DNA of 64,000 nt from positions 27,231 through 91,230 of IMG/VR virus record IMGVR_UViG_3300029813_000617. One strand, 5' to 3'. Each line of letters begins with the position of its first letter. The stretch's first letter is position 1. The stretch is from a virus. A program made the position numbers and the translations under genes. The notes beneath the pieces are model-generated. The model was not told the origin of the DNA and searched no databases. It saw only the letters and a program-made list of their open reading frames with translations. This document shows, one piece after another, positions 1 to 16,980 of the stretch.

Positions 1-317
1 TTGGGGCAGCGGTAGGTGCAACCCTTCTCGACTTTGCCGTAGTCTTTGCCGAAATACTGAGTCAGATTGTCCACAGTCTTCTTTGCGATGGCTTCAAGCT
101 TGGTTTTGCCTTTGACCTTCTCCAGAAAGACTTTGAGCTTCTCTAGAGCCTCAGCATTACGGCTAGCTTTGGCATCCTCTGTCGCGGTCTGGCCTGCAAG
201 GAGCTTCAGGCGCATGAAAGCGCCTTTGGCTGCCTTAGGGACCTCTTCGCCAGAGCCATCTACTGCTTTGACGAAAGCGGAGATCCACGCCTTCACCTTG
301 GATGTGAATCCAGCCAT
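1..317 (-). CDS. hypothetical protein, N-terminal part (runs off left edge)
   Basis: An open frame reads leftward from an ATG at 317 and continues past the window edge, showing about 105 residues. An AGGAGGT site lies about 8 bases before the ATG. The visible part begins MAGFTSKVKAW, is rich in Lys, Ala and Glu, and looks helical. Near the edge there is a Cys pair (CTYRC) that could start a zinc site. It follows the polyprotein and a small gene in the late leftward operon, after a terminator-like hairpin. No family recognised; a structural or scaffold-region role is only positional inference. Confidence 0.6.
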   Translation of the reverse strand, partial: MAGFTSKVKAWISAFVKAVDGSGEEVPKAAKGAFMRLKLLAGQTATEDAKASRNAEALEKLKVFLEKVKGKTKLEAIAKKTVDNLTQYFGKDYGKVEKGCTYRCP

Positions 318-619: not shown

Positions 620-3600
620 TTATTCGACCTGAATCAGAAACTCTTCCTTGATCGCAGGAGCGCTGACCAGGGAAATCTTGTCAATCCTGATATCGTAGAG
701 GCCATCAGAACTATCCATACGGCCTTTCCCTAAGATGGAGAAACCCGTGAGTTCTCCCGTAAGGATGCGTTGTCGAACCTGTGGTGAGAGCACAGCAATC
801 TCGATAACGGCTGTGCCCTTCCTGAACAGTCGCTTCCCAACACGAAAGCTCGCAGGGGCTTGAAAAATCTGGGTGAGCTTAACAGAACCCTTGGGAACCT
901 TCTCACTATGCTCGATATCAATCTCATAGCCATCGATGGAGCGAAGGGCCTTGGTGATTTCCTCAGCAGTAACATGGTGCTCCTGGGCATCAGTTTTGCC
1001 AGGAATCAGAAGTGGCCCATAGAGGAACATACCCTTCTCGCTAGGAGGTGAGTGGAAGAGCCTAGAACTGAAGGAGAGAGACTTCGCTAAACGAAATTCC
1101 CCATCGCCAGCTGCAAACTCTTTCCATTTCTCTTCTAGCTTTTCATCAGTAATGGGGCCAAGCCATCTACGACCTAACGAGTCAGCCTTGAGGACTTTGA
1201 GCAAGTCAGCATTCCAGACGATGTGCTTGAGTCGCTCCTTCTGTGCCTGGCGTTCTTTGGACTCACGGGAATACTGGAGGATGTAGGGCCGAGGGTTTAC
1301 AGTAACTCTGTTTATCATCCACCAGTCACCCTCTGCACCGATTTTCGTATACTCAGGTCTGGCTGCCAGGATCTGAGCACCCCAGCGACCAGAGAGCTTT
1401 TTGGTTCGATCGAACCAGAAGAAGCCTTCGTGATAATCACTCTTGCGGACACCATAAGCGCATCTGCCAAAGTCTGCAAAAATGAAACGAGCTCCAGTTT
1501 TGACTGTAGCCCCAACAGCACCTGGCGGAGCCCAATAGATGAGCCGCTTCGGATTCACGATTGTGAGCCAAATGAGAGGTTGGACTGCTTCGTCGAGTCC
1601 CCTCTCAGCCTCAATAAGCACTCTGAGTGAAATAGGATCTGTGTCTAAAAGCTCAAATGCAAGTATCGTTCCCTCAGGTAGAACTGCATCCCCGATCTGT
1701 ACGATCTCGAATTGCTTGTATGCCTCTAGCAACTCGGAGCTATTCTCAACGAGATGGAGATACCGCTCCTCATCGCAGAGGGGGTTTGGGCATTTCCTAT
1801 GTGCTACGATCTTATCATCGGGCTGATTCTCGAGAAACTTGTCACGGATGGGGTAGATATACTTGTGCCCACTCGCAAACTGTAAGACGATGGATGGAGC
1901 ATCAACTGTATACCCGATGAGATGTTCTCCCTCAGGTGACCTCATACGCCAGTCGCCGTGAACGTTCCCAACGTTCAGGATTTGGTCAAGAGACGGAAGA
2001 GATTTAGGAACTTTCTCATCAAGGAATCCATGGACAGCAGCTGAGACGTCTCCTCGCTTGTCAGCAGCAGCCTGAGCACGGCGCTTGAGAGTATCTAGGG
2101 AGCCTGTCAGAATAACTGGTTTATACTTGCGCCAAATGTCAGGAATGAGGCTCGAGTCGCTCCTGGCCTTAGTAAACTCAGCTCGGAGACTCTTGAGTTC
2201 ATCTGGTGTCCAGATACCTCGTTCGTGGTGCATATAGACGAAGGGAAAGGTCTTATCAGGAGGCTGGTGAACGAGATAGGGATCACCAAACTTACGCTCA
2301 GCCTCAGCCCGTTGCTTCTTGTGAGCGGGCTCATCGCCCTCACCAGAAGGCATACTAGACTCAAAGGCATAAACTTGGATGCTAGTGTTTGCCAGATCGT
2401 AGTAACCCAACTGGAGTCCTTCACGAGGAGAGAGAAAGTCCTGGAACTCAATGGCTACCTTTTTAGTTGTGAAGCAAGCCAGATGGTTTTTGTCCCACCT
2501 GACACACCAAGCACTATGTGCTCCTGCTTCCTCGGGTCCATCCTGACGGAAGGATTTAGGGATAATCTGAGGAGGCTTCTGAGCTGCTTCGTTAAACTTT
2601 CGAATCTTAGTTTCAGCTTCTCTGACCCCTTCTTTGCCATAAGGCTTGATACCTGTCCCAGAAAGATCGCAGTAGCCAAATTGCCCTATCTCACTAGAGG
2701 GCTGCTTATCACGAAACTTCTCTGCATCATTTTTCTGTCGATAACATGCGATAGCTCTACCCTCTGCCCAAATCACGCACCAACCATGACCTGGCTCAGC
2801 GGTAAGAGGCCCCTCAGAAAGAAAGCGAGAAGGCTTGGTGGCCTCGCGAAGCTTTTGAGCTTCGGCGAAATCATAGTTCCCAATCAAGAGTTCCTTCCGT
2901 GTACCAGGAGCCTGGCCTGTCCGAGTTTTTCGAGAATAGGTCGCATAGCGCATTCCAAGACTGACACCTTTGATGCTGGAGCCCTTGAAGGCTGCTCTGG
3001 TCCGCTTGCTATCGTACATAGAGAGCAGCCACTTACCACGAAGCCCCTTGAGGAACTTGGCCAGCCTTTCTGGCTCGGGGGCTGTAGATCCATAAGGTTG
3101 GAGATCACCACTGCCAAAGTGAGGGGGGTCAATATAGTGAAAGGTGGAAACTGAGTCATACTGCCGCATAGTCTTGAAAGCATCCTGTAGGGTGACAGTG
3201 ACATCCCCCTTGAGCTTTTGGCTAGCAGCCTGAAGCTTAGCTACTACTCCAGCCCAGGAGCGAGTTTGACCAGTCGAAGCAAAGCCCTTGGCAGGAGAGT
3301 CAGCCCAGGAGTTGAAGTTAAGGTAGAGGAACCGATAGAATCGCTCCCGCTTGCGGACAGGTTTCTGGTCTTTGAGAAACTGCCAGCGACTCTTGGACGG
3401 ACGCCAGTTCTGTTTCTTGAGCCACTCAATGTCTGACGAGGAGATATTCCTGATGAACCTGAGAGCTGCTATGATCTCAGGGTCCATATCGCCTAGGACA
3501 GATTTGGATGCTTTGTCCTTGGCAAAGAAAATCGTAGCCGAGCCACAGTAAGGCTCCACGTAAGCCTGGTGCTTAGGGATAAGTGGCAGGATGTGCTTGA

Positions 3601-5143
3601 CCAGGAGTGTCTTGCCTCCTGGATGACCAAAGGGCCTGATAGATTTTTGGAGAGTCTTGGGTGACCGTTGTACGATCTTCTCAACGTCGGCCACAGTATC
3701 AGGCTTCTTTCGAGTTGGGTCATACTCGCGAACCCTAGGGAAGGTCCACGAATAGTGTTCCTTGCCCTCGTCATCCTTCCAGACTCGCATAAGGATCGGA
3801 GCGACAGTGATAATATCACCCAACTTGGGACCAGGATCGAGCTTGATCGCATAGGTATTCCCATAGGCCCAGTCACCACGCTCTCGATGCTCGAAGCCCT
3901 TAGCCATCTCCCAGATTTGGGGATCGTCAGTGCCCTTCCAGACTCCGCCCTCATGCTCGGCGTCGAACTTGAGAGTGAGATCTCCAGGGGCCAGTTTATG
4001 CTGAGAGTCAATAGGGATTAGCTTAGAGTCATCGCGAACTGCACACCTATAGTAGAAAGTTTGGGAGTCTTTCTGGAGCTTACGAAAAGCTTTGAGGGCC
4101 TCTTCGCCTTCGAGGTTACGCTTGGAGCGATCAGGCCAAGGGTTAGGTTTGCGAGTTCGACCTATAACTTGGACATGCAGTTCAGAGACCATCTTGAGCT
4201 TTCCCCAATCGGCAGTCTCTTCTCGAGTGCGACCCCGAAGAGGATAATCAGAGTCCAGAGTCTTGACCATTGCACCCTCGCTGCCAGGATAAGCGATGGC
4301 CTTGTCAAGGGCAGCCATAAAGTCAGCCTTGGATTTGGCAGTCCAAGTCACAGCTTTTCTAAGATGCTTCTTATCCTTGGGGAGCATCCTGGAAAGAGAT
4401 GCAAGGCGTTCAGAGTAGGACTTGGTATTGAGTGCCTGACCATCCAGATAGAGAACGTCGTGGATGTTGATCCGAATATCCTCTCCCTTGACAGGAGTTT
4501 TGCCTACGATGACCCTGACCATCTCTCTGCGAGGGATAGGCTGCTCTTTCTGCCAGAGCACTAGTTCGACATCTACAATCCCCGACTTGATCGGAAGGCC
4601 GCGAACCTCGGAGACGACATCAGGAAGAATTGAGGCACGGTCACGCTTCTTGTCTTCAGTATAGATGGCTACTCGCTCTCCTTCCCAGTGGATAAGTAGT
4701 CTCAGGCCATCATACTTGGGCTGAATAGCGATAGGGCGATTAGCCTCCAGGCGTTCCTTAGCCCAAAGCTCATACAGGTCACCCTTGTTATTGAATTCGA
4801 ACTGACCATAGCCAGTACGAGCTTTCAGGGGCGTGAAGGGCTTGAAGAGAGTCACCTGCTGCTCAGCGAGAACGAGAGTCTGTGCATCATCCTCGGGCAG
4901 ACTGGATACGAATAATGCGACTCGCTCCTCATGAGAGAGCTCAGCTAGGCTCTCCCCAGATAGCTCTAGGCAGTCAGTAGGATAGAGGTTTCCTTCATGA
5001 CCAAGGGTGGGTAGTGAAAATGAGGACAGACCCAGTTCTCGATATCGACTCAGGCTATCGGCGTAGTCACCCGAGACATCGTTACCATCTGCATCCAGGA
5101 CGAAGCAGATATTTTTGATTTTTCGAATCAGGAGTTCAGCCAT
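620..5143 (-). CDS. polyprotein: DNA-ligase-like, Dam-like methyltransferase, XkdF-type prohead protease
   Basis: A 1507-residue fusion. Residues 130-320 carry ATP-dependent DNA ligase motifs: QPKYDGLR (adenylated Lys would be K143), VDVELVLW, SEGAMVK (288-294) and WGKLK (313-317). Residues 500-760 look like a Dam/D12-class adenine methyltransferase: FGHPGGK (505-511), YVEPYCGSATIFF (528-540), catalytic IDPPH in place of DPPY (671-675), and KELLIGNY. Residues about 770-910 hold two tandem WCVxW-type repeats. Residues about 910-1350 are unassigned. Residues 1355-1507 match XkdF-type phage serine proteases (Peptidase_S78_2), with IDIEH (His about 1412) and GELTGFS (Ser about 1469). This is the only protease candidate in the packaging/head operon, so head maturation is likely; the N-terminal domains may be cleaved off and packaged, like phage polyvalent proteins (inference). 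It has its own promoter at 5163-5190. Confidence 0.85.
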   Translation of the reverse strand: MAELLIRKIKNICFVLDADGNDVSGDYADSLSRYRELGLSSFSLPTLGHEGNLYPTDCLELSGESLAELSHEERVALFVSSLPEDDAQTLVLAEQQVTLFKPFTPLKARTGYGQFEFNNKGDLYELWAKERLEANRPIAIQPKYDGLRLLIHWEGERVAIYTEDKKRDRASILPDVVSEVRGLPIKSGIVDVELVLWQKEQPIPRREMVRVIVGKTPVKGEDIRINIHDVLYLDGQALNTKSYSERLASLSRMLPKDKKHLRKAVTWTAKSKADFMAALDKAIAYPGSEGAMVKTLDSDYPLRGRTREETADWGKLKMVSELHVQVIGRTRKPNPWPDRSKRNLEGEEALKAFRKLQKDSQTFYYRCAVRDDSKLIPIDSQHKLAPGDLTLKFDAEHEGGVWKGTDDPQIWEMAKGFEHRERGDWAYGNTYAIKLDPGPKLGDIITVAPILMRVWKDDEGKEHYSWTFPRVREYDPTRKKPDTVADVEKIVQRSPKTLQKSIRPFGHPGGKTLLVKHILPLIPKHQAYVEPYCGSATIFFAKDKASKSVLGDMDPEIIAALRFIRNISSSDIEWLKKQNWRPSKSRWQFLKDQKPVRKRERFYRFLYLNFNSWADSPAKGFASTGQTRSWAGVVAKLQAASQKLKGDVTVTLQDAFKTMRQYDSVSTFHYIDPPHFGSGDLQPYGSTAPEPERLAKFLKGLRGKWLLSMYDSKRTRAAFKGSSIKGVSLGMRYATYSRKTRTGQAPGTRKELLIGNYDFAEAQKLREATKPSRFLSEGPLTAEPGHGWCVIWAEGRAIACYRQKNDAEKFRDKQPSSEIGQFGYCDLSGTGIKPYGKEGVREAETKIRKFNEAAQKPPQIIPKSFRQDGPEEAGAHSAWCVRWDKNHLACFTTKKVAIEFQDFLSPREGLQLGYYDLANTSIQVYAFESSMPSGEGDEPAHKKQRAEAERKFGDPYLVHQPPDKTFPFVYMHHERGIWTPDELKSLRAEFTKARSDSSLIPDIWRKYKPVILTGSLDTLKRRAQAAADKRGDVSAAVHGFLDEKVPKSLPSLDQILNVGNVHGDWRMRSPEGEHLIGYTVDAPSIVLQFASGHKYIYPIRDKFLENQPDDKIVAHRKCPNPLCDEERYLHLVENSSELLEAYKQFEIVQIGDAVLPEGTILAFELLDTDPISLRVLIEAERGLDEAVQPLIWLTIVNPKRLIYWAPPGAVGATVKTGARFIFADFGRCAYGVRKSDYHEGFFWFDRTKKLSGRWGAQILAARPEYTKIGAEGDWWMINRVTVNPRPYILQYSRESKERQAQKERLKHIVWNADLLKVLKADSLGRRWLGPITDEKLEEKWKEFAAGDGEFRLAKSLSFSSRLFHSPPSEKGMFLYGPLLIPGKTDAQEHHVTAEEITKALRSIDGYEIDIEHSEKVPKGSVKLTQIFQAPASFRVGKRLFRKGTAVIEIAVLSPQVRQRILTGELTGFSILGKGRMDSSDGLYDIRIDKISLVSAPAIKEEFLIQVE

Positions 5144-5288: not shown

Positions 5289-5756
5289 CTATTTTTCAAG
5301 CCTTAAGATCCAAGTCGTGGATTCATCGCTAAGTCCAAACCCGCACTTCTCAAAGAGCTTTATCGATCGAGTATTATGACTGGAGATGGACGCCCGGAGC
5401 TCATGTAGCCCCAGCTCCCAAGCTTTTGCTATTGTCGCTCTCAACAACTTCTCTCCTAAACCCTTACCCTGCGAAATGGGAGAGATACAAACTCCTATCT
5501 CTGCTCCGCTCACTCCAGCAGACTGTCGTAGCTGGCTATAACCGAAGAACCAACCCGGACGGCAACCTATGTAGATGCGCCACTCGGACTGTTCTAAGTA
5601 CTTGCTAAACCAAGCCTTCTGCTCTTCCACGGTGATAGGTCTAGGATCTCGTAGCCACCTGTACACTTCAGGGTTGCTACGTGTCAATCGCACAAACTCG
5701 AGTGTTCCCTCGCTCAGGGGTTCTAAGATGATATCACCAGCCAGTATTGATAACAT
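5289..5756 (-). CDS. GNAT-family N-acetyltransferase (PseH/RimJ-like)
   Basis: About 155 residues. Features of the GNAT fold include EIGVCISPISQGKGLGEKLL (acetyl-CoA loop Q/RxxGxG/A as QGKGLG) and the C-terminal NTRSIKLFEKCGF signature. The ATG at 5756 follows AAGGTG and overlaps the end of the aminotransferase gene by about 23 bases. The pairing with a PLP sugar aminotransferase suggests acetylation of the new 4-amino group of a nucleotide sugar, as PseH does after PseC. Substrate is inferred, not shown. Confidence 0.85.
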   Translation of the reverse strand: MLSILAGDIILEPLSEGTLEFVRLTRSNPEVYRWLRDPRPITVEEQKAWFSKYLEQSEWRIYIGCRPGWFFGYSQLRQSAGVSGAEIGVCISPISQGKGLGEKLLRATIAKAWELGLHELRASISSHNTRSIKLFEKCGFGLSDESTTWILRLEK

Positions 5757-6843
5757 CAATCACCTTTTCGATATCCTCATCTGATAGACCCAGGTGCAAC
5801 GGAAGAGAAATCAACCTCTCAGAACAAAGTTGTGCCACGGGAGTCTCACTTATAAGACCACCATAGATAGAGTAGGAGTTGTTCGGTATATAATGGACTC
5901 CTGGCTCGATACCGTTCCCTTTCAGCTTTTTTATGAGGCCATTTCGGTTTCTTGCTTGGATCCAAAAAAGATGCTGAGCACAGGTTCTAGTAGGATCTGA
6001 TAGGGGCATCTTAATCACAATGTCTCTATGAATCAAACCCTCGCTGTACATCACTGCGATCTGCCTGCGTCGCTCGTTTCCTGCTTCCAGTACCTTGAGC
6101 TGGGCTAAGCCAATAGCAGCGATTACGTCATTCATATGATACTTGTAGCCTATCTCAGTAACATCATACTGCCACGCGTAGGCTCCAGTATCCTCCTCAG
6201 TACGTCTCCAAGTATCCTTGTCTATGCCTAGCCATCGTAGTCGCTTGGCCCTTTCTGCATATTTGCGACTCGAGGTAGTTAGCATTCCGCCATCAGCCGT
6301 AGGGAGATTTTTGACAGCGTGGAAGCTGAAACAGGTCAAGCCAGAACCCCCGATAAGGCGATTTATGTAGGTGCTCCCACAGGCATGAGCGGCGTCTTCG
6401 ATAACAGTAATACCCAAGTGTCTGGCAGGCTCTTGCAACATAGCAAGGTCACAAGGCCAGCCCCCAAAGTGGACACACATAATAGCCTTAGTCTTCGGAG
6501 TGATTAGCTTCACTACAGACGCCGGATCAATGTTACACGTCCTAGCCCTAACATCAGCCCAGATAGGGGTTGCCCCACAGTATCGAATCGCATGATTAGT
6601 AGACACAAAAGTAAGTGGGGTCGTTATTACCTCATCACCAGGTCCCACTCCAACTAGCAAGAGAGCTAGGTGCAAAGCAGCTGTACCTGAGTTGAGAGCA
6701 ACTGCATACTTCGCTCCTACGTATTCAGCAAATGCTTTCTCAAACCCGGCGGTCTTGGGTCCCAGGCCAATCCAGCCCGACCTGAGAACTTCCTCGACCG
6801 CTTTAATAGCCTCTTCTGTAATGTATGGCTTAAACAACTGCAC
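5734..6843 (-). CDS. DegT/DnrJ/EryC1-family sugar aminotransferase (PseC/ArnB-like)
   Basis: 369 residues, normal family length. Seen: YAVALNSGTAALHLAL (cofactor phosphate site), VIEDAAHACGS (Asp contacting the PLP ring) and FSFHAVKNLPTADGG with the PLP lysine. Such enzymes transaminate a 4-keto (or 3-keto) nucleotide sugar using glutamate. Start is GTG at 6843 with GGGAGG 8 bases upstream. It lies directly before the GNAT gene, a common PseC-PseH style pair. No dehydratase making the keto-sugar is present in the cassette. Confidence 0.9.
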   Translation of the reverse strand: MQLFKPYITEEAIKAVEEVLRSGWIGLGPKTAGFEKAFAEYVGAKYAVALNSGTAALHLALLLVGVGPGDEVITTPLTFVSTNHAIRYCGATPIWADVRARTCNIDPASVVKLITPKTKAIMCVHFGGWPCDLAMLQEPARHLGITVIEDAAHACGSTYINRLIGGSGLTCFSFHAVKNLPTADGGMLTTSSRKYAERAKRLRWLGIDKDTWRRTEEDTGAYAWQYDVTEIGYKYHMNDVIAAIGLAQLKVLEAGNERRRQIAVMYSEGLIHRDIVIKMPLSDPTRTCAQHLFWIQARNRNGLIKKLKGNGIEPGVHYIPNNSYSIYGGLISETPVAQLCSERLISLPLHLGLSDEDIEKVIDVINTGW

Positions 6844-6846
6844 CTC

Positions 6847-7542
6847 TCAGTCCTCCCACGGAGTAAAGTCTTTGTTCCAATAGTTGTCACTGGATTTATG
6901 GATCTTATCTGCCAGAGTGATTGGGACATGCTCTATCTTGAAATGTTGTGCAATTCTGAACCAATAGTCCCAATCTGCCGTCGCGGAATAGGAAGCACCT
7001 GGGTGAGAATATCTCCCGTGCTTATTTCTGAAATATCCCACTTTATCAATGACCTCTCTGCGATGCATTACTGCCAAGACTGCTATGAGATTTGTGCGTT
7101 TCATCATCTCCATATCAAAATCGCGAGATAGATCACGCCTGGCAATCTCTCCCTGCCCATATAGGTTTCTGTGCCAAACATAGTCACAAAAGGCTAGTCC
7201 GACGCCTGGATGTGCGTCTAAGTAAGCACTCATAATCTCTAAGAACTTGAGTTTGTAAGTGTCATCATGGTCAAGATAGCAAAAGTACTTCCCACGAGCA
7301 ATCCTCATACCGTCATTCCTAACACACTCGCCCTGCCTTAGATATGGCCCCGCCTTTTTGATATAGATGATTCTGGAATCATCAAACTGCTTGATTACTT
7401 GTTCAGTGTTGTCAGGAGAGACGTCATCAATGATAATAAGCTCGAAGTTGGGCATGGTTTGGAGTAACACGCTTCTAATAGATCTCTCGATGAAGCGTGC
7501 TCCTTTGTAGGTAGGCATTATGACAGATACTAAGGGGTTCAT
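6847..7542 (-). CDS. glycosyltransferase family 2
   Basis: 231 residues from an ATG at 7542 that overlaps the upstream stop. GT-A fold: PLVSVIMPTYKGARF at the start, ELIIIDDVSPDNTE, and CYLDHDDTY, a DxD-like metal/nucleotide-sugar motif. An alternative start 33 bases upstream adds residues unlike the family. It lies between two aminotransferase genes, so it may transfer the amino sugar they make. Acceptor unknown. Confidence 0.88.
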   Translation of the reverse strand: MNPLVSVIMPTYKGARFIERSIRSVLLQTMPNFELIIIDDVSPDNTEQVIKQFDDSRIIYIKKAGPYLRQGECVRNDGMRIARGKYFCYLDHDDTYKLKFLEIMSAYLDAHPGVGLAFCDYVWHRNLYGQGEIARRDLSRDFDMEMMKRTNLIAVLAVMHRREVIDKVGYFRNKHGRYSHPGASYSATADWDYWFRIAQHFKIEHVPITLADKIHKSSDNYWNKDFTPWED

Positions 7543-7544
7543 TA

Positions 7545-8657
7545 TTACTCTCTTGCTATTCTGATGATTTGGCAAACCCTACTGATCTCTCTCTGACTCA
7601 CAGAGGTGCCAGTAGGCAGACAGAGCACTTGCTGAGTTAGGAGATCAGTCTCTGGCAACAACAGGCCCTCGTAAAAAGGGGAAGAGTGATACGGCTCCAT
7701 GCGATGGCAGCCTGGATAGAAGTAACGTCGAGCAAGTACATTCTCGGCATGCAGAACCTCAACTAGGTGATCCCGACTGATACCAGAAATCGCCTCATTG
7801 ATCTCTAAAACGATGTACTGATAATTACACTTCTCGGTTTCGTCATAGGCTAGGAGCTGAATTCCAGGTATGCCCTCCAACTCCTCTCGATATCGCTTAT
7901 AGTTGCGGTAGTTGACAGCAACAAACTCACTAAAACTCTCCAGTCCCGTCAGCCCCATTGCTGCCGATATCTCACTCATCTTGCCATTAGTGCCAACGCT
8001 AACAACGTTATCATAGCCTGCAAAACCAAAGTTCTTCATCAAGCGAACCCTGGCAGCTAAGTCATCATCGTTGGTAGTTATCGCCCCACCCTCGAAAGTA
8101 TTGAGAATTTTTGTCGCATGGAAACTAAACATCTCAGCATTGCCAAAACTACCAACCATTTGCCCTTTGTGCGAACATCCAAAGGCATGGGCAGCATCAA
8201 ACAGGAGCTTTAGACCTTGTCGCTGTGCAAGCTTAGTTAACACTTCTATATTACAGGGCCGTCCCCATACATGAACGCCGATAATGCCAGTAGTACGTAA
8301 TGTGATCAGTCGCCTCACTTGATCTGGATCTATGTTACAAGTGTAAGGATCAATATCGCAGAAGACAGGCGTAATTCCCAGCCACTGCAAAGCATGAGCT
8401 GTAGCAATAAAGGTAAATGAAGGCACAATGACTTCGCCAGACAGCCCCAATGCTCGGATAGCGACCTCCAGCGCAACAGTACCATTACAAGCAGCAACAC
8501 AATGCTTGACTCCTAAAAGGTCAGCAACGCGCTGCTCGAATTCCTGCACATAGCGACCCCTGTTAGTCAACCAGTGTCTATCCAGGAGATCGTTGATACG
8601 CTCTAGTAGACATTCACGACTGCCGATATTAGGACGACCGACGTGTAGTGGACTCAT
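7545..8657 (-). CDS. second DegT/DnrJ/EryC1-family sugar aminotransferase
   Basis: About 370 residues. Motifs: HCVAACNGTVALEVAI, LLFDAAHAFGC and MFSFHATKILNTFEGG containing the PLP lysine. It is only partly similar to the aminotransferase ending at 5734, so the two probably act on different keto-sugars or positions. The ATG at 8657 is chosen; a TTG at 8666 would give a 4-base overlap with the upstream acetyltransferase stop and has a better-placed AAGG. The acetyltransferase next to it is the usual PglD/NeuD-type partner. Confidence 0.88.
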   Translation of the reverse strand: MSPLHVGRPNIGSRECLLERINDLLDRHWLTNRGRYVQEFEQRVADLLGVKHCVAACNGTVALEVAIRALGLSGEVIVPSFTFIATAHALQWLGITPVFCDIDPYTCNIDPDQVRRLITLRTTGIIGVHVWGRPCNIEVLTKLAQRQGLKLLFDAAHAFGCSHKGQMVGSFGNAEMFSFHATKILNTFEGGAITTNDDDLAARVRLMKNFGFAGYDNVVSVGTNGKMSEISAAMGLTGLESFSEFVAVNYRNYKRYREELEGIPGIQLLAYDETEKCNYQYIVLEINEAISGISRDHLVEVLHAENVLARRYFYPGCHRMEPYHSSPFYEGLLLPETDLLTQQVLCLPTGTSVSQREISRVCQIIRIARE

Positions 8658-8662
8658 AATAG

Positions 8663-9313
8663 TCAAACGGCATCAACCTTTCGTATAACCCTGGCAGGAA
8701 CCCCATAGGCCACCATATTATCGGGGACATATCTTAGCACAACAGCGCCAGCCCCCACCAGGGAACCCCTACCGATAGTTACATGCTCTATAACTATTGC
8801 TCCGATGCCAACCCACGCAGCTGAACATACCCTTACTCCGCCAGCCAGACAAACTCCTGGGCAAATGTGAACTCCATCACCTATGATGCAGTGGTGACCA
8901 ATACTAGTGCAAGAATTGATTATTGCGTTCTCTCCGATCGTTGCCCCAGGTTTTATCACTGCCCCAGCCCCAATCACAGTACCTGAGCCGACAGGCACGT
9001 CAGCTGCGATGACAGCACTGGGATGAATGGCGGTAGCCAATCTAAAGCCACTATCACGAACCAGTTTGGACAACCTTAGTCGTGCTCTGCAGTTCCCGAA
9101 CGCAAGAATACAGTACTCGACACCCATTTCCTTGAGATTGTCTAATTGTTCCTTTCCACCAAGAATAAAGGCTTCACAGAACTCTATACCACGACGCTCG
9201 GGATTCACATCGTCGAGAAATCCTACAATCTCGTACTCGCCCTGCAAGCGTACAATGTCGGCAACCACTAAAGCGTGTCCTGAAGCACCCCAGACCACCA
9301 ACTTGCGTTTCAC
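8663..9313 (-). CDS. NeuD/PglD-like sugar O/N-acetyltransferase, left-handed beta-helix
   Basis: 216 residues with GTG start. An N-terminal Rossmann-like part (KLVVWGASGHALVVADIV, residues 4-22) is followed by many hexapeptide repeats (VPVGSGTVIGAGAVIKPGA, ENAIINSCTSIGHHCIIGDG) with the catalytic His in the SIGHH segment. This layout is typical of PglD and NeuD. With the neighbouring aminotransferase it probably acetylates an amino sugar nucleotide. The reaction is inferred from family and context. Confidence 0.88.
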   Translation of the reverse strand: MKRKLVVWGASGHALVVADIVRLQGEYEIVGFLDDVNPERRGIEFCEAFILGGKEQLDNLKEMGVEYCILAFGNCRARLRLSKLVRDSGFRLATAIHPSAVIAADVPVGSGTVIGAGAVIKPGATIGENAIINSCTSIGHHCIIGDGVHICPGVCLAGGVRVCSAAWVGIGAIVIEHVTIGRGSLVGAGAVVLRYVPDNMVAYGVPARVIRKVDAV

Positions 9314-9319
9314 GAGGTA

Positions 9320-9448
9320 CTATCTCCTTTTCGATACGTCGCTATCAACCGAATACAGATGAACATCTTTGCACCAACGAAGCACTTTACAGATTTCGAG
9401 ACCGACTTCTGTGCCTCCTGGAAACACCAAAACTCTGTAGGGTCTCAC
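9320..9448 (-). pseudogene. truncated ATP-grasp enzyme (N-terminal remnant)
   Basis: A 42-residue frame from a GTG at 9448 that overlaps the preceding methyltransferase stop as GTGA, with GGCAGGAG upstream. It contains RVLVFPGGTEVGLEICKVLR, the typical N-terminal pre-ATP-grasp Rossmann strand of carboxylate-amine ligase-like enzymes in surface-glycan clusters. It then stops after SDVSKRR, and the acetyltransferase gene starts 7 bases later. The ATP-binding and catalytic part (usually about 300 residues) is absent, so this is read as a deletion remnant that is still translated. Confidence 0.6.
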
Positions 9449-10038
9449 ACTCCTGCCTCTGAAGGTAGGATGCGCTGGCAAATAAGCATATTGGGAACCT
9501 CCTGAACTCTCTCCCATTCAGGATTATTAGTTAGCACCTGGTTTACGGCCTTTGCAACGCTTTTCCACTCAATGTCATGGAAGGCAACATGACCACCCAC
9601 AACAACCCATTTTAGGAATCCGCAGTCACTAAGAACTGTTGCGGTGTCATGACCACCGTCTATGAAAAGTAAACCTACTGGCTCCCAATCTAACTTAACA
9701 GCATCCAGGGAGTTCATCTCGTGAACTTCAATCTTATGTCTCCAAGGCTTCACATTCCGCTCAAAAATGTCGCGAGTATCGGGTTTTTTTGAGGGTACAA
9801 TTCCCCGCCCTGTTTTATCTCTGGGAACTCTACCACCCCTCGGAGCTTTCACAAGAAAGTAATCAATGCAGATCACTTTTCTCGCCACAGGAGCCATTGC
9901 AACGGTTGATTTGCCGAAATAGCTACCAACCTCCAGCACAACTTGATCCCGCGCAAGGCGCTCTAACACCTCAGCCTGTGCCAAGGATAACCAGCCGAAA
10001 ACTTTAGCTATTCGCTGAGATAACGATATCTCCGCCAT
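9445..10038 (-). CDS. SAM-dependent methyltransferase (class I, Methyltransf_24-like)
   Basis: About 197 residues. VVLEVGSYFGKSTVAMA is the SAM-binding loop, followed by VICIDYF, LLFIDGGHD and VVVGGHVAFHDI, the order seen in CmcI/Methyltransf_24 proteins. The ATG at 10038 has GGGGAG 8 bases upstream; a GTG at 10047 is the alternative. Role in the cassette is probably O- or N-methylation of a sugar or its substituent. Confidence 0.75.
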   Translation of the reverse strand: MAEISLSQRIAKVFGWLSLAQAEVLERLARDQVVLEVGSYFGKSTVAMAPVARKVICIDYFLVKAPRGGRVPRDKTGRGIVPSKKPDTRDIFERNVKPWRHKIEVHEMNSLDAVKLDWEPVGLLFIDGGHDTATVLSDCGFLKWVVVGGHVAFHDIEWKSVAKAVNQVLTNNPEWERVQEVPNMLICQRILPSEAGV

Positions 10039-10043
10039 AGTAC

Positions 10044-10922
10044 TCACTCCCCAAAAATCTCTAGTTCCTTAATGACGTATTTGCACCACTTACCAAATGC
10101 TAGATCTTGATACCACACTACCTGAGCAAGTTCTCCCATTTGCAATAGCTTCTCCACCGAGGAGGAGAAAGAGTTCAAGATATCCTCAGCTTCCTCAGCC
10201 GAACTCGCATAGAAACTCATTTGATCCCAGTCCAGGAACGCTTTGAAAGGGCGAGTATCTATGTCACTGATAAGTAAAGGCACTATCCCTAACTGCATTG
10301 CCTCATAGAACCTAAAGGAAGTTGGCCCATAGCCTCGCGGGCTGAGGGCGATATAGGACTGGAGCATCTGGTTGACAAAGAAACCAAGACTTTTGACGCT
10401 GCCGCGTATGTCAGTATCATCTCTCTTGCCTAGAAGGCACTGCATCTCGAATCGGATCGTTGGGTATGTCCCCAACCTCCCAACAAAAGAGGCTAGCCAC
10501 TTTTTTCTCGGCTTAGGAGAAGGAGTCTTGTATGGATAAACCAACAAGGGCACATCGAAACTTTTTCCTCTGCGGGACGAGAAAAACTTGGTGATTCTAC
10601 CAAGATCAACTAGAGGGCCTGCAGAGTCCTGGCAGATTGTAAAGGTCCTATCCTCATTGAGAGTTCGTTCTAACACTTGCTGCTGAAGGAATTCCAGTCC
10701 CGTCTTTCCATGACTGTGATTCCAGTGATACCAGGTCCAGTATATGGGAAGATAATGCCAATCAGCAACACCAGGTCGATTCGTGACAAATCCTGGGTTC
10801 TGCTCGAGAAATCTAAGGAAATCTTGCTCAATGCCATAGCTTCCTTTGTTATGTGCAGGATAGGCAAATACGGTAGATTGTGGTTGGAGCTCAGGAGGTA
10901 CTGGCAGAACGAATATCTTCAC
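10044..10922 (-). CDS. exostosin-like glycosyltransferase (GT47-type)
   Basis: 292 residues, GTG start after GGAG. The C-terminal half has the exostosin signature SFRFYEAMQLGIVPLLISD and a preceding ASFVGRLGTYPTIR segment. Bacterial exostosin-family proteins transfer sugars onto glycan chains. About 90 bases without a gene separate it from the next gene upstream; no promoter is evident there. Confidence 0.75.
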   Translation of the reverse strand: MKIFVLPVPPELQPQSTVFAYPAHNKGSYGIEQDFLRFLEQNPGFVTNRPGVADWHYLPIYWTWYHWNHSHGKTGLEFLQQQVLERTLNEDRTFTICQDSAGPLVDLGRITKFFSSRRGKSFDVPLLVYPYKTPSPKPRKKWLASFVGRLGTYPTIRFEMQCLLGKRDDTDIRGSVKSLGFFVNQMLQSYIALSPRGYGPTSFRFYEAMQLGIVPLLISDIDTRPFKAFLDWDQMSFYASSAEEAEDILNSFSSSVEKLLQMGELAQVVWYQDLAFGKWCKYVIKELEIFGE

Positions 10923-11011
10923 TTCAACGACTCCATCCGCATCTTTTACACAGGGGTAAGAAGCGTTCTCCCCTGCTTAGTCTTTCGTATACCTCTTTGT
11001 ATGGCTAAACA

Positions 11012-11698
11012 TCAATTCCCCTTAATCAGGTCAGCACACCAGAGGCAGAACAGAGAGCCTTTTAGTCTGGTCAGTACCTGTTCCGTACCAGGATTTGGAT
11101 AAAAAAAAGCCTCTTCTACCACAGAGAATTCTGGTAGTGCAGCTAAGACTTGAGATTTGGTGAAAATCCTGTGAGCATTGAAGCAGAGCATGGATGTATG
11201 GCTTATAGGTACACTTATTATGAAGTGTCCTCCTGGCTCAACTACTCGGGAAACCTCTTTGAATGCTTTGATGCTGCCATACGGGTCTAACTTGTCGCCA
11301 TACCGACCTAACCCAACATGCTCTATTACGCACAAGCTACACAAGAGTTCCACGGAGCCATCGGCAACAGGAAGATTGGTGATTGAAGCTCGCCTGCAAG
11401 TCAAGTTAGGTAAAGAGACTGGAAGGGGCCTTATATCAAAACTAGTAGTTGGGAACAACCGAGAGATGATCCCTACGAGAAGTGCAGTTGAACCCACGTC
11501 AACTACACTCTTTGGATGAATCTCAACGATTCTCTTAAAAGCCCACGTATCCTGACGGAAGCAAAATCCATCCACATGAGTCACAGCGGTTTTCTGGCCG
11601 AGACACGGGTATCGAATTCCTCCCTTCTCTGCACCAGGAAGTTTCATGTAGGCTATGTACTCTCTGCGATACTCCTCCATCATCTCTTCCCGATTCAC
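11012..11698 (-). CDS. DUF268-like SAM methyltransferase
   Basis: 228 residues. SVVDVGSTALLVG replaces the classic SAM glycine loop; SFDIRPLP, and then LCVIEHVGLGRYGDKLDP and EVSRVVEPGGHFIIS, are typical of DUF268/type-11-like methyltransferases in O-antigen loci. GTG start at 11698 with GGAG 9 bases upstream, directly after the previous gene's stop. Confidence 0.75.
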   Translation of the reverse strand: MNREEMMEEYRREYIAYMKLPGAEKGGIRYPCLGQKTAVTHVDGFCFRQDTWAFKRIVEIHPKSVVDVGSTALLVGIISRLFPTTSFDIRPLPVSLPNLTCRRASITNLPVADGSVELLCSLCVIEHVGLGRYGDKLDPYGSIKAFKEVSRVVEPGGHFIISVPISHTSMLCFNAHRIFTKSQVLAALPEFSVVEEAFFYPNPGTEQVLTRLKGSLFCLWCADLIKGN

Positions 11699-12291
11699 TA
11701 TTCTGTCTCCACTTGATACGAAAACACCAGAACTCCTCGATGTATCTTCTGGAAAGATCCCTTTCCCGTGTAATCCAAACAGACAAAACTCGAACTAATT
11801 CTGTATACAGCAAAGTCCACCTCAGCTCTTGTAGGCCAGTTATAGCCACACACCTCGGGATCTCTCTTTCCAAAATCATCTACATCGTCGATTGCGATAA
11901 CAAGTGAAGAGCTAGGACAATATTGACGAATAGTTTCTAGCTCATCTAACAAAGGGCACGGAAAATCTGCACCGCCAGTGCCACTGCCACTAAAGTGCCC
12001 ATCTAGCCAGAAGAAGATTCGATCTTCGGAAGAACACAATGGAAAGGTCTGCTTACGAAAGATCTCGTAGCTTTTACCCAGGAAGACCTGCTGATTCGCC
12101 CCTGTTGGATACTGAGACACCGCTAACCTATAAAGCCCTAGTGCAACTTCAACAGTATAACAGCGCTCAAATATACCTGACTCAAGAGCCCTTCGGAAAG
12201 AGTACCCCAGATGTGTCCCTGACTCGATGAATACATTGCACTGAGCATCCCTAGCAATCTTCAAGATTTGAGATGTGATAGTGGACATCAT
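11698..12291 (-). CDS. SAM-methyltransferase-like protein of glycan clusters
   Basis: 197 residues. FIESGTHLGYSFRRAL resembles a SAM-binding loop, CYTVEVA the acidic strand, and RIFFWLDGHFSGSGTGG a catalytic-loop-like segment followed by CPLLDELETI. Similar proteins occur in polysaccharide loci, usually annotated as FkbM-like or O-methyltransferase-like. Enzymatic activity is not certain. Tightly packed with its neighbours. Confidence 0.6.
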   Translation of the reverse strand: MMSTITSQILKIARDAQCNVFIESGTHLGYSFRRALESGIFERCYTVEVALGLYRLAVSQYPTGANQQVFLGKSYEIFRKQTFPLCSSEDRIFFWLDGHFSGSGTGGADFPCPLLDELETIRQYCPSSSLVIAIDDVDDFGKRDPEVCGYNWPTRAEVDFAVYRISSSFVCLDYTGKGSFQKIHRGVLVFSYQVETE

Positions 12292-12295
12292 CTAC

Positions 12296-12943
12296 TTACT
12301 TAGGGTCTCGGCAGATCGCAACAACTGGCGATGCTTTTGTGTCAGTATCCAAGGAAGGACCGAGAGTGTGATTAGAGAGCCTAACGTCACCGAAATATGA
12401 GAGAAGGACATCTCGAAACTCTCCAGCAGTCCATTCTCGAACATGCCGTATGTTTCCTGGGGGGCCCTCGCTCTGTGCTCCTCCTCTAGAGTTTCTGTTC
12501 GGCGACGAGATGTAAAGAGTTCCTGGGTCTTTGAGAATGCGGCGTAGCTGACTCAGCACCTTCTGATAATCCTTGACATGCTCAATGATCTCAATGGCAG
12601 CGATGATATCAAAGCCAGCGTCGGGCAGAGAAGAATCCTTTATATCCCCACACAGAAAGCGAACGTTCTTCAAGGGGAAACACTTCCTAGCAAACTCATA
12701 GCCACGAGGGACTATTTCGACTCCAGTCACCGACCGAGCCTCTTGGGCCAGAATGGCTGTACCTAAACCTGAACCCGATCCGACATCACAAACTACCCTA
12801 TCTACAGACTCACGTGCAACAGCCTCGTAGATTTCTCGCTGGGGGTAAGAGAATAACACCCTACTTTTCCCCCAACGATCGAACATAGTCTCTACAGGAT
12901 TACATTCCATCTCGGGATTTTCTTTGTACATCATGGTCCTCAC
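12296..12943 (-). CDS. SAM-dependent methyltransferase (type 11)
   Basis: 215 residues. VVCDVGSGSGLGTAIL (SAM motif I), VTGVEIVPRGYEFA, GFDIIAAIEIIEHV and LKDPGTLYISSPN are classic class I motifs. GTG start overlaps the upstream stop by 4 bases; an ATG at 12934 preceded by GAGG is the alternative. Part of the glycan cassette; substrate unknown. Confidence 0.85.
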   Translation of the reverse strand: MRTMMYKENPEMECNPVETMFDRWGKSRVLFSYPQREIYEAVARESVDRVVCDVGSGSGLGTAILAQEARSVTGVEIVPRGYEFARKCFPLKNVRFLCGDIKDSSLPDAGFDIIAAIEIIEHVKDYQKVLSQLRRILKDPGTLYISSPNRNSRGGAQSEGPPGNIRHVREWTAGEFRDVLLSYFGDVRLSNHTLGPSLDTDTKASPVVAICRDPK

Positions 12944-13734
12944 TTTACAGGAGTATTTGGGAGACTGACTATCTCCCGCCAGTTCTTGTTGCGGTGTATC
13001 TCAAGACCACCAAACTGCATATTTACGAAACCTAGCTTTTTGGAGAGTTGCTGCTCACCCCAGTTATTTTCGTTCCTATAATACAGTTCTACCAGACCTA
13101 GGGCGATGTTGCTGCGAGCAAGCAGTTCTTCCAGGAACTTGGCACGATATACTGATAGCCAAAGAACAACTGGCCAGCACCTGCTCTTCAACACTCCATC
13201 TTGGAAGCGTGTCCACCATAACGTATAGTCCTGTTGTCGAGTAGGTGTAAGGTGTACTCCTCTGAAAGAAACCTGACCAGGGTCAACGCTTATATGGGTA
13301 AGGTTGCCTAGTTGGAAGTTGTGAGCTCTTCCGATTAGCGGATAGCCAACCAGGCGTATCTGCACTAACTCTTTGTCTCTTTCAAAAGCATCGCAACTAT
13401 GCTTAAGGAGTTGCTCCAACTCAGAAACATACACATTGTCATCTAAGTGAATGAAACTAAGATCGGAGCCTTGTTCATGAGCCTTGCGTACAGCAGAGAG
13501 AAGAGCCGCAGTGCCACCAAGACGCTTCAGACGCTGAATGTAGGTAATGTTCGGCTTGTTATAAATCTCCTTGCCTACTCCATACCAAGTGGATCCAGGC
13601 TTTGGTAAATCGTCAACAACAATGTGAGGATAAGTCTCGCCAACAACCTTCCTTAGTGAGGCTAGGGAGTACCGAGCAAACTGAGCACGCTGCTGACTGT
13701 GAATGTAGCTCGGCGTCACAATTGTAAGCTGCAC
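12940..13734 (-). CDS. glycosyltransferase family 2-like
   Basis: 264 residues from a GTG at 13734 with AGGGGAG 8 bases upstream. A longer ATG form would overlap the upstream gene by 38 bases and adds unlikely residues. VQLTIVTPSYIHSQQRA matches the GT-A N terminus and SFIHLDDNVYVSE supplies the DDN metal-binding motif. Divergent from standard GT2 in its C-terminal half. Confidence 0.75.
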   Translation of the reverse strand: MQLTIVTPSYIHSQQRAQFARYSLASLRKVVGETYPHIVVDDLPKPGSTWYGVGKEIYNKPNITYIQRLKRLGGTAALLSAVRKAHEQGSDLSFIHLDDNVYVSELEQLLKHSCDAFERDKELVQIRLVGYPLIGRAHNFQLGNLTHISVDPGQVSFRGVHLTPTRQQDYTLWWTRFQDGVLKSRCWPVVLWLSVYRAKFLEELLARSNIALGLVELYYRNENNWGEQQLSKKLGFVNMQFGGLEIHRNKNWREIVSLPNTPVK

Positions 13735-13738
13735 CTTG

Positions 13739-14239
13739 CTATTCTCCCCTTGAGGCTTCGCACAAAAGATCCCCATCTATAATGGATCCATTGCGCGAGG
13801 GAACTACTCTGCAGCTTATGATGCTGAATCCCGCCTGCTCTACAAAATGTCTTAGGCTCTCCACGTCAAATAGGTTGTGGTTTAGATACCCAGGTCCTCT
13901 ATTCTGCATACCCAGAATGCTGTGAAGTCCCGTGCTCGCTCGGAAAGCCAAGTCTCCTGCAAGCCAACGCCTCATATGTGTAGTGATGTTAGGGCATCGA
14001 ATTTTCAACCGCCCTCCAATCTTCAATACTCTGAGCCACTCTCTAAGCGTCGCAGGAAAATCTGAGGCAGGTATATGCTCAACCAAGTGCGATGAGTAAA
14101 CCTCGTCTACACTCTCGTCAGGATAATCCAGATGTCTTACATCCATTCTCTGATCAGCTTTAGAGTAATACTTATCTATGTTCACGTAGCCCTTGAGAAG
14201 AGCTCCGCCACAACCCAGGTTCAGTTTTAGAGTACACAC
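13739..14239 (-). CDS. small SAM methyltransferase-like protein
   Basis: 166 residues, GTG start with GGAGGG 7 bases upstream. KLNLGCGGALLKGYVNID, MDVRHLDYPDESVDEVY, SSHLVEHIP and VLKIGGRLKIRCPN are the usual type-11 motifs in the short glycan-locus version (often beside glycosyltransferases). May be a methyltransferase or a SAM-fold protein without activity. Confidence 0.8.
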   Translation of the reverse strand: MCTLKLNLGCGGALLKGYVNIDKYYSKADQRMDVRHLDYPDESVDEVYSSHLVEHIPASDFPATLREWLRVLKIGGRLKIRCPNITTHMRRWLAGDLAFRASTGLHSILGMQNRGPGYLNHNLFDVESLRHFVEQAGFSIISCRVVPSRNGSIIDGDLLCEASRGE

Positions 14240-15222
14240 TATGAAACCCTCCTAATCATCTGAGCTATACGCATGTCCCAAGTGTGACGAGCAAGTACTT
14301 CCCTTCGCCCTGCAGTAGCAATTTCCTCACGTTCCTCCTCGTGGGCAAGATAGTACTTGGCTAACTCTATAGCTTCAGGTACTGAGTTGAACCACACTAG
14401 GTGTTTCCTGTTCTCAAAGAATGTCTCTATGCCAGGTACATAGTGAGTTAAGTGAAAAGCCCCACTAGCCATCGAGTTCATGGCACGTCTCCACGATGCG
14501 TACATATGAATATCGTTCACACCATTGACACCCAGGGTAACTTTTGTGCGAGAGCAAACTTTAGAGAATGTGCCACCAAAGACAAATGGGTGCAGGTACA
14601 CATCTCCCCTCTCTCTCAGATACACCCAACTCCCGATAGTTCCAAAGATATGTAAACAGAATCCCTCACCAAGAATAGTTTCTAGCAACTGGCGGCGAAC
14701 CTTGTAGCCTGTATTCTGAGGAAGAGGGATATTAGATCCCATAAAGACTAGATCCCAGGTCTTCTCTTCCTTTTTTGGGTAGAATACTTCAGGATCGACA
14801 CCGCAACCCCACCAATCTCCAACATACTTCACACCCGCTGCTTCATATATGTTGCGACACCTCGCGTCATCATTGTTGAACAAGGTGCAATCTGCGTACT
14901 GACCTATATCAACTACCCATGGTTGCAAGTTCCACCGAAAGTCTCCATAGAAATGAATGACATAGGTATCCAAGCTCTCCTTGATTGCTTCGACAGTAGC
15001 TCCAGAAACGTTTCCGCACTTCCCAAGGTGAATCAGGCGAGGCTGAAACCGCAGAGCAGCCTCGACTAGCATCTCATTCATTCGAATGACACCGTGTTTG
15101 GCAGCGAGAGATCCATTATCGAAAGTTTCTAGGGTAGCGATTTTGCGATACGCCTTTATTATACCATTCACGTTGTCTGCTGAGTAGGCAGACGAGATAG
15201 TATCAACGTATAGAACTTTCAT
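14239..15222 (-). CDS. CgeB-like glycosyltransferase
   Basis: 327 residues from ATG 15222, which overlaps the upstream stop as ATGA. An upstream ATG at 15321 would give an N-terminal extension inside the neighbouring gene and is rejected. The GT-B C-terminal half has GCGVDPEVFYP, DLVFMGSNIP and a region ending ARHTWDMRIAQMI, typical of CgeB/Glyco_trans_1_2 proteins. Probably a paralogue of the next gene. Confidence 0.75.
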   Translation of the reverse strand: MKVLYVDTISSAYSADNVNGIIKAYRKIATLETFDNGSLAAKHGVIRMNEMLVEAALRFQPRLIHLGKCGNVSGATVEAIKESLDTYVIHFYGDFRWNLQPWVVDIGQYADCTLFNNDDARCRNIYEAAGVKYVGDWWGCGVDPEVFYPKKEEKTWDLVFMGSNIPLPQNTGYKVRRQLLETILGEGFCLHIFGTIGSWVYLRERGDVYLHPFVFGGTFSKVCSRTKVTLGVNGVNDIHMYASWRRAMNSMASGAFHLTHYVPGIETFFENRKHLVWFNSVPEAIELAKYYLAHEEEREEIATAGRREVLARHTWDMRIAQMIRRVS

Positions 15223-16118
15223 ACAGATGCCTTTCCCGCAACTACTGCGTCGATTATGCGCTCCCCTACTCGTTTCCAAGTATGTTCCTGGACTTTCTCC
15301 AGGCCAAGCTTGCAAAGGCACTCTCTTTCTACATCATGGGACAGATAGTAGTCAATAAGATCAAGTTCCTCTGTAGGACTCCTGAACTGAGGTACGGCAT
15401 CTCCGAACAAATCCTCTATTCCGGCGTTCCAGGCCGAGATACAGAATCCACCGCTCGCCAATATGTCGAATACTCGGACTGGAACAAAACCCTGGTCTGA
15501 CATTTCGTGATACTGGTCATTCAGACTTATCTTGACTGAGCCATACAAATCAGCCAAGTCGTCATAAGGGAAAAACGCACCCCCATAGTATTTCTCAGGT
15601 AGAAGACTTTTCCATTGGCCACTCCACGCCTTTATCCTGTAATCTCCAGATAGCAAGGGGGTCAGAGCTCGTCGCCCCCAAGTTCCCTTGGGTCCCTGTC
15701 CTGGCCTGGGATTAGCTACAAGAGCTATGTCGCAGCCGAAATCCTTACGCTCTATGGGGGGAGTCTTGGAGCTAGCCCCAACCATCGTCTCAACATTTTG
15801 GCAACCCATATCACGGAGGACTTGAGTGAATGGTGAAGAGAGACAGAACACTTTGCCAAAGCGTTGCAGATAACTAGGGTTCCTCCCAGCAGAATTTGGG
15901 TGATCATAGAGCCAGGCGATAGTATAGATGTCGGGTAACCTTTGAAAATCATAACCCAATTGAAAGAAGCAAGCATCTGGATCCTTGTCTGAGACTTCGA
16001 CTCCTAGTGACTGTAGAGCCCTAGTGATCTCCTGTCTTACCCAATAGTCACCCCATAACAGAGCGGTGGATGGTGGTTTGGCATACTGCATATCACTCGA
16101 GAGGACATATATCCTCAT
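15219..16118 (-). CDS. CgeB-like glycosyltransferase
   Basis: 299 residues. ISLNDQYHEMSDQGFVPVR then DILASGGFCISAWNAGIEDL and EHTWKRVGERIIDAV match the nucleotide-sugar-binding C-terminal domain of CgeB-type GT-B enzymes. It shares the DxxASG(A/G)F and HTWxxR pattern with the gene downstream, so the pair probably arose by duplication. Confidence 0.78.
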   Translation of the reverse strand: MRIYVLSSDMQYAKPPSTALLWGDYWVRQEITRALQSLGVEVSDKDPDACFFQLGYDFQRLPDIYTIAWLYDHPNSAGRNPSYLQRFGKVFCLSSPFTQVLRDMGCQNVETMVGASSKTPPIERKDFGCDIALVANPRPGQGPKGTWGRRALTPLLSGDYRIKAWSGQWKSLLPEKYYGGAFFPYDDLADLYGSVKISLNDQYHEMSDQGFVPVRVFDILASGGFCISAWNAGIEDLFGDAVPQFRSPTEELDLIDYYLSHDVERECLCKLGLEKVQEHTWKRVGERIIDAVVAGKASV

Positions 16119-16119
16119 C

Positions 16120-16980
16120 TTACACGCCCCCTGGCATCTTTCCGCTATCAGGGCACCAAGTGTACTGCCCTATATCTCGAACTGTCACCTTGGTTTCATA
16201 GTGGCCGGGGTTTCCTAGTTTACCTTGCTCAGTTAGTTCTCTAACTCTCAATACGGCAGCATTATGAGCAGACGTTTTGAAGTCTCTATACATTGCCCCA
16301 TCTTGCATCTCAAAGTTTTCGTCAGGCAACTCTCTGCAGTTAGCATTTCTCACATAGGCACTTCTGAGTCCATGATGCTGCTGCCTCGTATGGAGCTCGC
16401 TATCCTCTAGGCCATATATACTGTGTTCACAGAAATACCCCAGCCTCACGAGTGTGGCAGCACTCATAACATAGAGTCCCCCAGGATTAGGGCAATTATC
16501 CAGGAAAACTCCCTCAACCTCTTTCCAAAGAGTCGGGGTAAACCACGTGTGTCCCCAGGGCTGACCAAACCCCTGCACGTTGTTGCCAACTATCCCGAGA
16601 CCAGGGAGCTCCGAAGCATAGCAAAGATAACTAAGCCAGTACGGGCTAACCTCTATGTCATTATCTATACAACAGTACCAAGCAGCTTCGCCTTCCGAGA
16701 CCTTTAGCCCAAAGTTCTTCCCTACTGCGATTCCTCTATTCTCGGGCAACAAAATCAATCTATCGATCAAGTCTGCTCGCCTGAGCTTCTTCAAGTTCGC
16801 AACGGTTTCATCCCAACTACCATTATCAACAACTGTTAAGACGTGAGGTAGGAAAGTATTCGCGAAGACCGAGATCAGGCTCTGGCCAGTACATTTCCAT
16901 CTGTTAAAAGTGACCATCGTAACGGAAGCCCTCTGTTCAGACTTCTTAGCATCCGCTACGAACTGTTCAGGGCTAAACAC
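16120..16980 (-). CDS. glycosyltransferase family 2
   Basis: 286 residues, GTG start after GAAGGA. SVTMVTFNRWKCTGQSL, LTVVDNGSWDETV and WYCCIDNDIEVSPYW (DND metal motif) mark a GT2 rhamnosyltransferase-like domain. Conserved GLEDSELHTR is the acceptor-side ED motif. It lies between the two-domain glycosyltransferase and the CgeB pair. Confidence 0.88.
   Translation of the reverse strand: MFSPEQFVADAKKSEQRASVTMVTFNRWKCTGQSLISVFANTFLPHVLTVVDNGSWDETVANLKKLRRADLIDRLILLPENRGIAVGKNFGLKVSEGEAAWYCCIDNDIEVSPYWLSYLCYASELPGLGIVGNNVQGFGQPWGHTWFTPTLWKEVEGVFLDNCPNPGGLYVMSAATLVRLGYFCEHSIYGLEDSELHTRQQHHGLRSAYVRNANCRELPDENFEMQDGAMYRDFKTSAHNAAVLRVRELTEQGKLGNPGHYETKVTVRDIGQYTWCPDSGKMPGGV

Follow-up and report, generated by a model that had tools for sequence, protein, structure and literature searches.

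The window analysed here is a stretch of 64,000 nucleotides (positions 27,231 to 91,230) of a 91,230-base virus record, IMGVR_UViG_3300029813_000617. Its minus strand carries a head module in which the order runs from the terminase (two ORFs), the portal gene, a 502-aa gene and a block of about 13 genes to a large polyprotein gene, a capsid fusion and tail genes, including one for a Phage_tube_2 protein. An earlier note had described the polyprotein as one gene of 1507 residues; the coordinates are correct and the frame is uninterrupted, and we add the strand, which had been left unstated. The features of the locus are as follows, in window coordinates.

23071-25636, minus strand: terminase large subunit in two ORFs, nuclease (23071-23949) and ATPase (24710-25636), phrog_38
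20483-21808, minus strand: portal protein (phrog_10963, E 3e-29)
18787-20295, minus strand: 502-aa gene, ASCH-like N-terminal part and Pol-beta-like nucleotidyltransferase (NTase) motif (GSx9DxD)
620-5143, minus strand: polyprotein P0001, a single 1507-aa ORF read as ligase, D12 methylase, linker repeats, LigD-phosphoesterase-like region and XkdF protease
3668-4828, minus strand: ATP-dependent DNA ligase nucleotidyltransferase and C-terminal (probable OB) region, residues 106-492 (Pfam, PDB ligases, motifs)
4700-4717, minus strand: ligase motif KYDGLR with the catalytic lysine, residues 143-148
4262-4282, minus strand: ligase motif SEGAMVK, residues 288-294
4193-4207, minus strand: ligase motif WGKLK, residues 313-317
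2867-3640, minus strand: D12/Dam-type N6-adenine methylase domain, residues 502-759 (Pfam, PDB, motif comparison)
near 3536-3559, minus strand: methylase motif I, YCGSA (atypical)
3119-3130, minus strand: methylase motif IV, DPPH (atypical)
2324-2866, minus strand: linker with two WCVxW...GYxDL repeats (L013 alignment, sequence inspection)
1244-2245, minus strand: LigD 3'-phosphoesterase (PE)-like domain, with the barrel up to residue 1300 (several individually weak, jointly consistent matches)
2216-2245, minus strand: first PE-like strand, PFVYMHHERG
1940-1963, minus strand: PE-like VHGDWRMR, after an insertion of about 85 aa
722-1036, minus strand: XkdF/S78_2 serine protease domain, residues 1370-1474 of 1507 (Pfam, phrog_3017, alignment)
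905-916, minus strand: protease histidine in IEHS
734-745, minus strand: protease serine in GFSI
653-679, minus strand: strand KISLVSAPA, after the protease
3-317, minus strand: the part within the window of the next gene, a 913-aa protease-scaffold-major capsid fusion that starts at window position 317 (L003:9807-12548)

Whether the long frame could be an artefact of gene calling, or three genes joined by an assembly error as the earlier note had allowed, was considered, and both were rejected. On another contig, the relative L013 keeps the ligase, D12 domain, PE-like region and XkdF domain in the same order within one ORF of 1343 aa, and its ligase is 74% identical to that of P0001. The 164 residues by which P0001 is longer are mostly the two linker repeats, and the WCVxW...GYxDL linker is nearly all missing from L013. 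Fusions of ligase and XkdF occur in 18 distinct clusters in total. No point in favour of an artefact was found, and we treat its probability as negligible.

When the whole protein was scanned against Pfam, the ligase, methylase and protease proposed by the earlier note all scored above the gathering scores, so that the three assignments hold at the level of domains. DNA_ligase_A_M covers residues 135-317 (E 6.1e-22, 78.7 bits against a cut-off of 26.2), and the ligase part also matches PDB ligases, including 3gde and 2cfm; the NHEJ ligase model TIGR02779 of NCBIfam matches at E 4e-18, under that model's cut-off. The three motifs that had been read by eye (KYDGLR, EGAMVK and WGKLK) are all present, and motifs I, III, IV and V are intact in P0001 and in nearly all relatives. 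For the methylase, MethyltransfD12 covers residues 508-725 (E 9.6e-16, 58.7 bits, cut-off 22), with further matches to PDB 7m6b and Dam, while NCBIfam Dam models match below cut-off. The fold family is thus matched by profile, although motif IV of P0001, DPPH, departs from the D12 consensus [DNS]PP[YFW]. L013 has DPPY and the other D12-bearing relatives DPPY/W, and motif I is mostly GSG in these relatives, versus YCGSA here. With DPPH in place of DPPY/W and YCGSA in place of YxGSG, methylase activity of P0001 is doubtful; the domain is real, and the modifying role that the earlier note gave it is questionable for this copy.

Between the linker and the protease lies a region, residues ~967-1300, that the earlier note overlooked. 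Alignment of this region from 14 relatives shows Q-x-H-x-R-G and H-x-D-x-R to be invariant. Searched against all PDB sequences, the family profile gave two matches up to E 1, both of them LigD-type phosphoesterases (3p4h/3ta5/3ta7 at E 0.086 and 3p43 at E 0.68). An AlphaFold model of residues 1046-1290 (pLDDT 61.6) had 3p43 as its best PDB match in Foldseek, with a TM-score of 0.51 by target length at a weak E of 0.69. Pfam LigD_N matches relatives weakly, under its cut-off, and the whole-protein Pfam scan gave no match to the LigD 3'-phosphoesterase family PF13298 in P0001 itself. Each of these items is weak; together, they make a PE-like domain the best reading of the region, which would make the core of the polyprotein resemble LigD. 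The usual QxHxRG does not immediately precede VHGDWRMR, which at first pointed to P0001 having lost the first PE histidine; this reading was set aside. P0001, L013 and L015 seem to share an insertion of about 85 residues between the first and second strands. In L015, RFVAQLHYRG lies about 110 residues upstream and scores 14.5 bits, and the homologous PFVYMHHERG of P0001 and L013 scores 6.3 bits, compared with shuffles of P0001 that average -0.4 (SD 3.3, maximum 9.5). These strands suggest that the first strand was more likely displaced by the insertion than lost, with a significance that is modest in P0001 taken alone. Many relatives seemingly have a second PE-like copy after the first (L020 residues ~1517-1604, L009, L026), which P0001 lacks; the copy in L020 matches LigD_N positions 24-107 at E 6e-5.

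For the C-terminal serine protease, Peptidase_S78_2/XkdF matches at E 1.1e-10 (42.1 bits, cut-off 24), the head maturation protease profile phrog_3017 matches at E 8e-12, and the catalytic serine and histidine are present. XkdF is placed in the assemblin-like peptidase group. P0001 has LTQ in place of LES in this domain, and no autocleavage site was identified.

Such departures could mean that most of the polyprotein consists of relic domains, retained to bind DNA or to fill out the head structure, with the protease alone active. The DPPH and YCGSA motifs, the insertion that splits the PE strands and the LTQ for LES would all suit such decay. Set against it are the intact ligase motifs and a comparison of P0001 with L013 in which pS (0.67-0.86) is far above pN (0.17-0.33) in each alignable domain; dS is saturated in several parts of this comparison. 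The difference argues for constraint on every alignable domain, the methylase included, and we consider decay of this extent improbable.

The gene that follows the polyprotein is itself a fusion. Its product matches NF045541 of NCBIfam (E 3e-45) and Phage_capsid_4 of Pfam (E 1e-35), and it has its own GFSISG protease, also overlooked in the earlier note. Several zinc ribbons lie in its N-terminal part, and it also has a long (EP)n stretch. Capsid fusions with their own protease occur in the window, L013 and L014, so that the window genome has two head proteases, which makes self-release of the polyprotein less secure for this virus than for other family members. Where relatives have XkdF fused, a scaffold-like gene follows, opening with an xSLVDRAANKRxFL motif, to which the KISLVSAPA strand of P0001 looks equivalent. 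The profile phrog_3017 is split between two genes in these relatives, with positions 4-43 aligning to the beginning of the scaffold gene and about 36-156 to the end of the polyprotein. No other protease match was found in their scaffold genes, and in many relatives the fused XkdF is the only head protease found. In the relatives tested, the middle of the usual head-protease gene is missing and the fused protease is that part; the repair ORF therefore seems to bear the head protease.

In Pseudomonas and Rhizobium phages, several short XkdF proteases bear the label "DNA methyltransferase" (L067:2919-3335, L068:4031-4477 and L066:3480-4112). We rejected these labels as evidence of fusion, given proteins of about 138-210 aa; the name was probably inherited from fusion proteins.

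As a single query, P0001 had no match among the viral contigs. Relatives were found by scanning these contigs with ligase-region alignments, for which a five-member alignment was needed, and 52 loci were recovered. After exclusion of L061-L063, which have a short ligase ORF only, there were 46 non-identical ORFs, including P0001 and that of ANMV-1, in 39 clusters at 90% identity. The ligase is present in 38 of the 39 clusters (a count that follows from how the sequences were found), the Pol-beta-like NTase in 34, PE in 32, XkdF in 18 and D12 in 7, and ligase, PE, NTase and XkdF occur all together in 14. The cluster domain HMMs were trained on the same sequences, and their E-values are therefore not independent; in the tested ORFs, Pfam independently confirms ligase, D12, XkdF, UDG, NUDIX and C5 methylase domains. 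Fusion to the protease is not required, as about half of the family is without it (e.g., ANMV-1 and L009). Many of the contigs are fragments. No cultured member of the family was found. With its dozens of relatives, the family points to a class of tailed viruses that is little known.

Individual relatives vary widely in architecture. The 2838-aa ORF of L015 (L015:2199-10712) has five tandem C5-cytosine methylase stretches followed by NTase, ligase, PE and XkdF, and L024 has two D12 domains. NUDIX and a family-4-like uracil-DNA glycosylase occur in L017:7176-12994 and L018:7278-12583, with XkdF in the following ORF. Two unrelated ORFs interrupt the ligase ORF of L006:6110-11502 inside the ligase domain, which is uninterrupted in the near relatives L009 and L012. 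By eye only, the 1604-aa relative L011:3977-8788 has a long insertion like a C25/caspase-type peptidase (HGD...GHCG), and L019:2-2914 has an intein-like insertion (CFDQLTEILTKDGWK...) within the NTase domain. A search of cellular genomes with narrow patterns gave matches on one Myxococcales MAG contig alone, at both ends (L064 and L065 of the 105.8-kb Myxococcales-binned contig JACPVI010000063.1). The ORF at one end, of 2052 aa, combines ligase and XkdF with three D12 stretches, and the contig is possibly a whole phage genome.

The additional domains of some relatives (D12 or C5 methylases, UDG at E 6e-20, and NUDIX) bear on what the set of enzymes acts on. Phages carry RNA repair ligases, and both Pol-beta-like NTases and ligases can work on RNA; the ligase, NTase and PE might thus mend RNA, such as tRNA cut by a host defence. 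The profiles matched are those of DNA_ligase_A_M and an NHEJ DNA ligase, the companions are DNA methylases and UDG, and LigD PE works on DNA 3' ends, all of which makes a role in RNA repair highly improbable. As repair enzymes for DNA, the domains of the family appear to form a coherent set.

The earlier note supposed that the protein travels with the capsid, and the location of its gene agrees, within the head module with terminase and portal upstream and the capsid fusion downstream. Among the relatives tested, a portal gene lies upstream in L032, L035, L039, L049, L053, L008, L009, L012 and ANMV-1, and a capsid-type gene lies downstream in L013, L015, L017, L022 and L009. The ANMV-1 protein AJP62005 (L004:1913-3193), named "MutT-like phage hydrolase", matches the portal profile phrog_146 at E 2e-30, and its label is likely a misannotation. 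The Pol-beta-like NTase, fused to the ligase in most relatives, is here a separate gene of 502 aa. Its assignment is based on a G-[GS]-x9/10-D-x-D motif and on a relative's single weak match to NTP_transf_2; a fold search gave it no support. Between this gene and the polyprotein, inside the head module, about 13 minus-strand genes (5289-18815) read, from their translations only, as glycosyltransferases, sugar aminotransferases, acetyltransferases and small methyltransferases.

On balance, we think it probable that P0001 is a polyvalent head protein of a tailed virus, in which a LigD-like end-repair core, a Dam-like methylase domain and a head-maturation protease domain are packaged and delivered together. 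Delivery in the virion, which we infer from the genes, is the best reading, and co-packaging is the simplest one, given that the repair domains are either joined to a protein with an obligatory place in the prohead or encoded next to it. The C-terminal protease would join prohead assembly and thereby bring in the polyprotein. Inside the prohead, either the polyprotein's XkdF domain or the second protease, encoded in the capsid gene, would release it. The freed enzymes would stay in the head and enter the cell with the DNA. On entry, 3' ends would be cleaned, gaps filled (with the Pol-beta-like NTase encoded nearby, provided that it is a polymerase) and nicks sealed before host nucleases or replication meet the damage; in some members, uracil and oxidised nucleotides would be removed too. 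The methylase could mark the incoming DNA against restriction, which is doubtful in this virus.

The same enzymes might instead act in the producing cell, mending nicks, gaps and blocked ends at packaging, with only the protease piece entering the prohead. Position in a late head operon fits this equally well, ligation and end cleaning would be useful for packaging intact DNA, and many members have no protease fusion. However, portal and scaffold genes adjoin the ORF rather than replication genes, and D12 and C5 methylases fit entry into a restricting host better, although marking before packaging is possible. Consequently, we hold action at packaging to be unlikely, if far from negligible, and prefer delivery with the virion.

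For the family at large, we put it at about an even chance that a widespread and so far undescribed class of bacterial and archaeal tailed viruses builds an injected DNA-repair kit into the head so that the genome is mended on arrival. The kit would comprise a Pol-beta-like gap filler, a LigD-type 3'-end cleaner and an ATP ligase, in some members with UDG and NUDIX, fused to or encoded beside the head protease. Genome repair at entry has been proposed for the base excision repair of giant viruses; we know of no such proposal for tailed phages. Should the particle contain the kit, tailed viruses would mend their genomes at the moment of entry, and cargo that rides on the head protease would explain how multi-enzyme proteins enter heads. 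Many homologues are available for testing, and chains that already combine ligases, methylases and end-processing enzymes may have practical use.

The closest known systems are the polyvalent proteins, described in the main text of Iyer 2017 (PMC5512222) as large multidomain proteins of phages and conjugative elements, found in a portal/head context and proposed to be packaged and injected. There, an assemblin-like peptidase is always C-terminal, and DNA methylases and Pol-beta NTases are among the enzymes. P0001 likewise joins disparate enzymes (ligase, D12 methylase and S78_2 protease) in one chain, in a head/portal context and with the peptidase at the C-terminus (XkdF at 1370-1474 of 1507). 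The family therefore fits the polyvalent proteins, and by analogy with them its members would be packaged and injected. A term search of that main text found no DNA ligase or glycosylase, with ligase occurring in the context of RNA ligase. The same text reports a paucity of polyvalent proteins in archaea, whereas ANMV-1, a member here, is an archaeal virus. Its "ATP-dependent DNA ligase" (KP703175, AJP62006) has NTase, ligase and PE in one ORF right after the portal gene, but neither methylase nor protease is fused to it. Fusions of methylase and protease are already in databases, as phrog_13242 (450 positions, unknown function) carries D12 at about 20-286 and XkdF at about 316-429 and matches neither ligase nor PE. 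The usual XkdF gene (phrog_3017) differs from the family in having leader, protease and scaffold together.

Like bacterial LigD, P0001 has an ATP ligase and, putatively, a 3'-phosphoesterase-like domain in one polypeptide. Unlike LigD, it is without a primase-type POL domain in Pfam and NCBIfam scans, with a Pol-beta-like NTase instead in relatives, and the family is tied to head genes and has extra methylase and protease domains. The DarA/DarB/Hdf antirestriction system of phage P1 (PMC5512222, PMC12810830) also guards incoming DNA with head-associated proteins, including a methylase, but these are separate genes with no ligase or PE. A search of open-access papers found no earlier report that links polyvalent proteins to a DNA-repair ligase or UDG in the virion. 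What appears to be new, relative to these systems, is a LigD/BER-like repair set in a polyvalent head setting, its spread to include an archaeal virus, and a repair ORF that carries the head protease.
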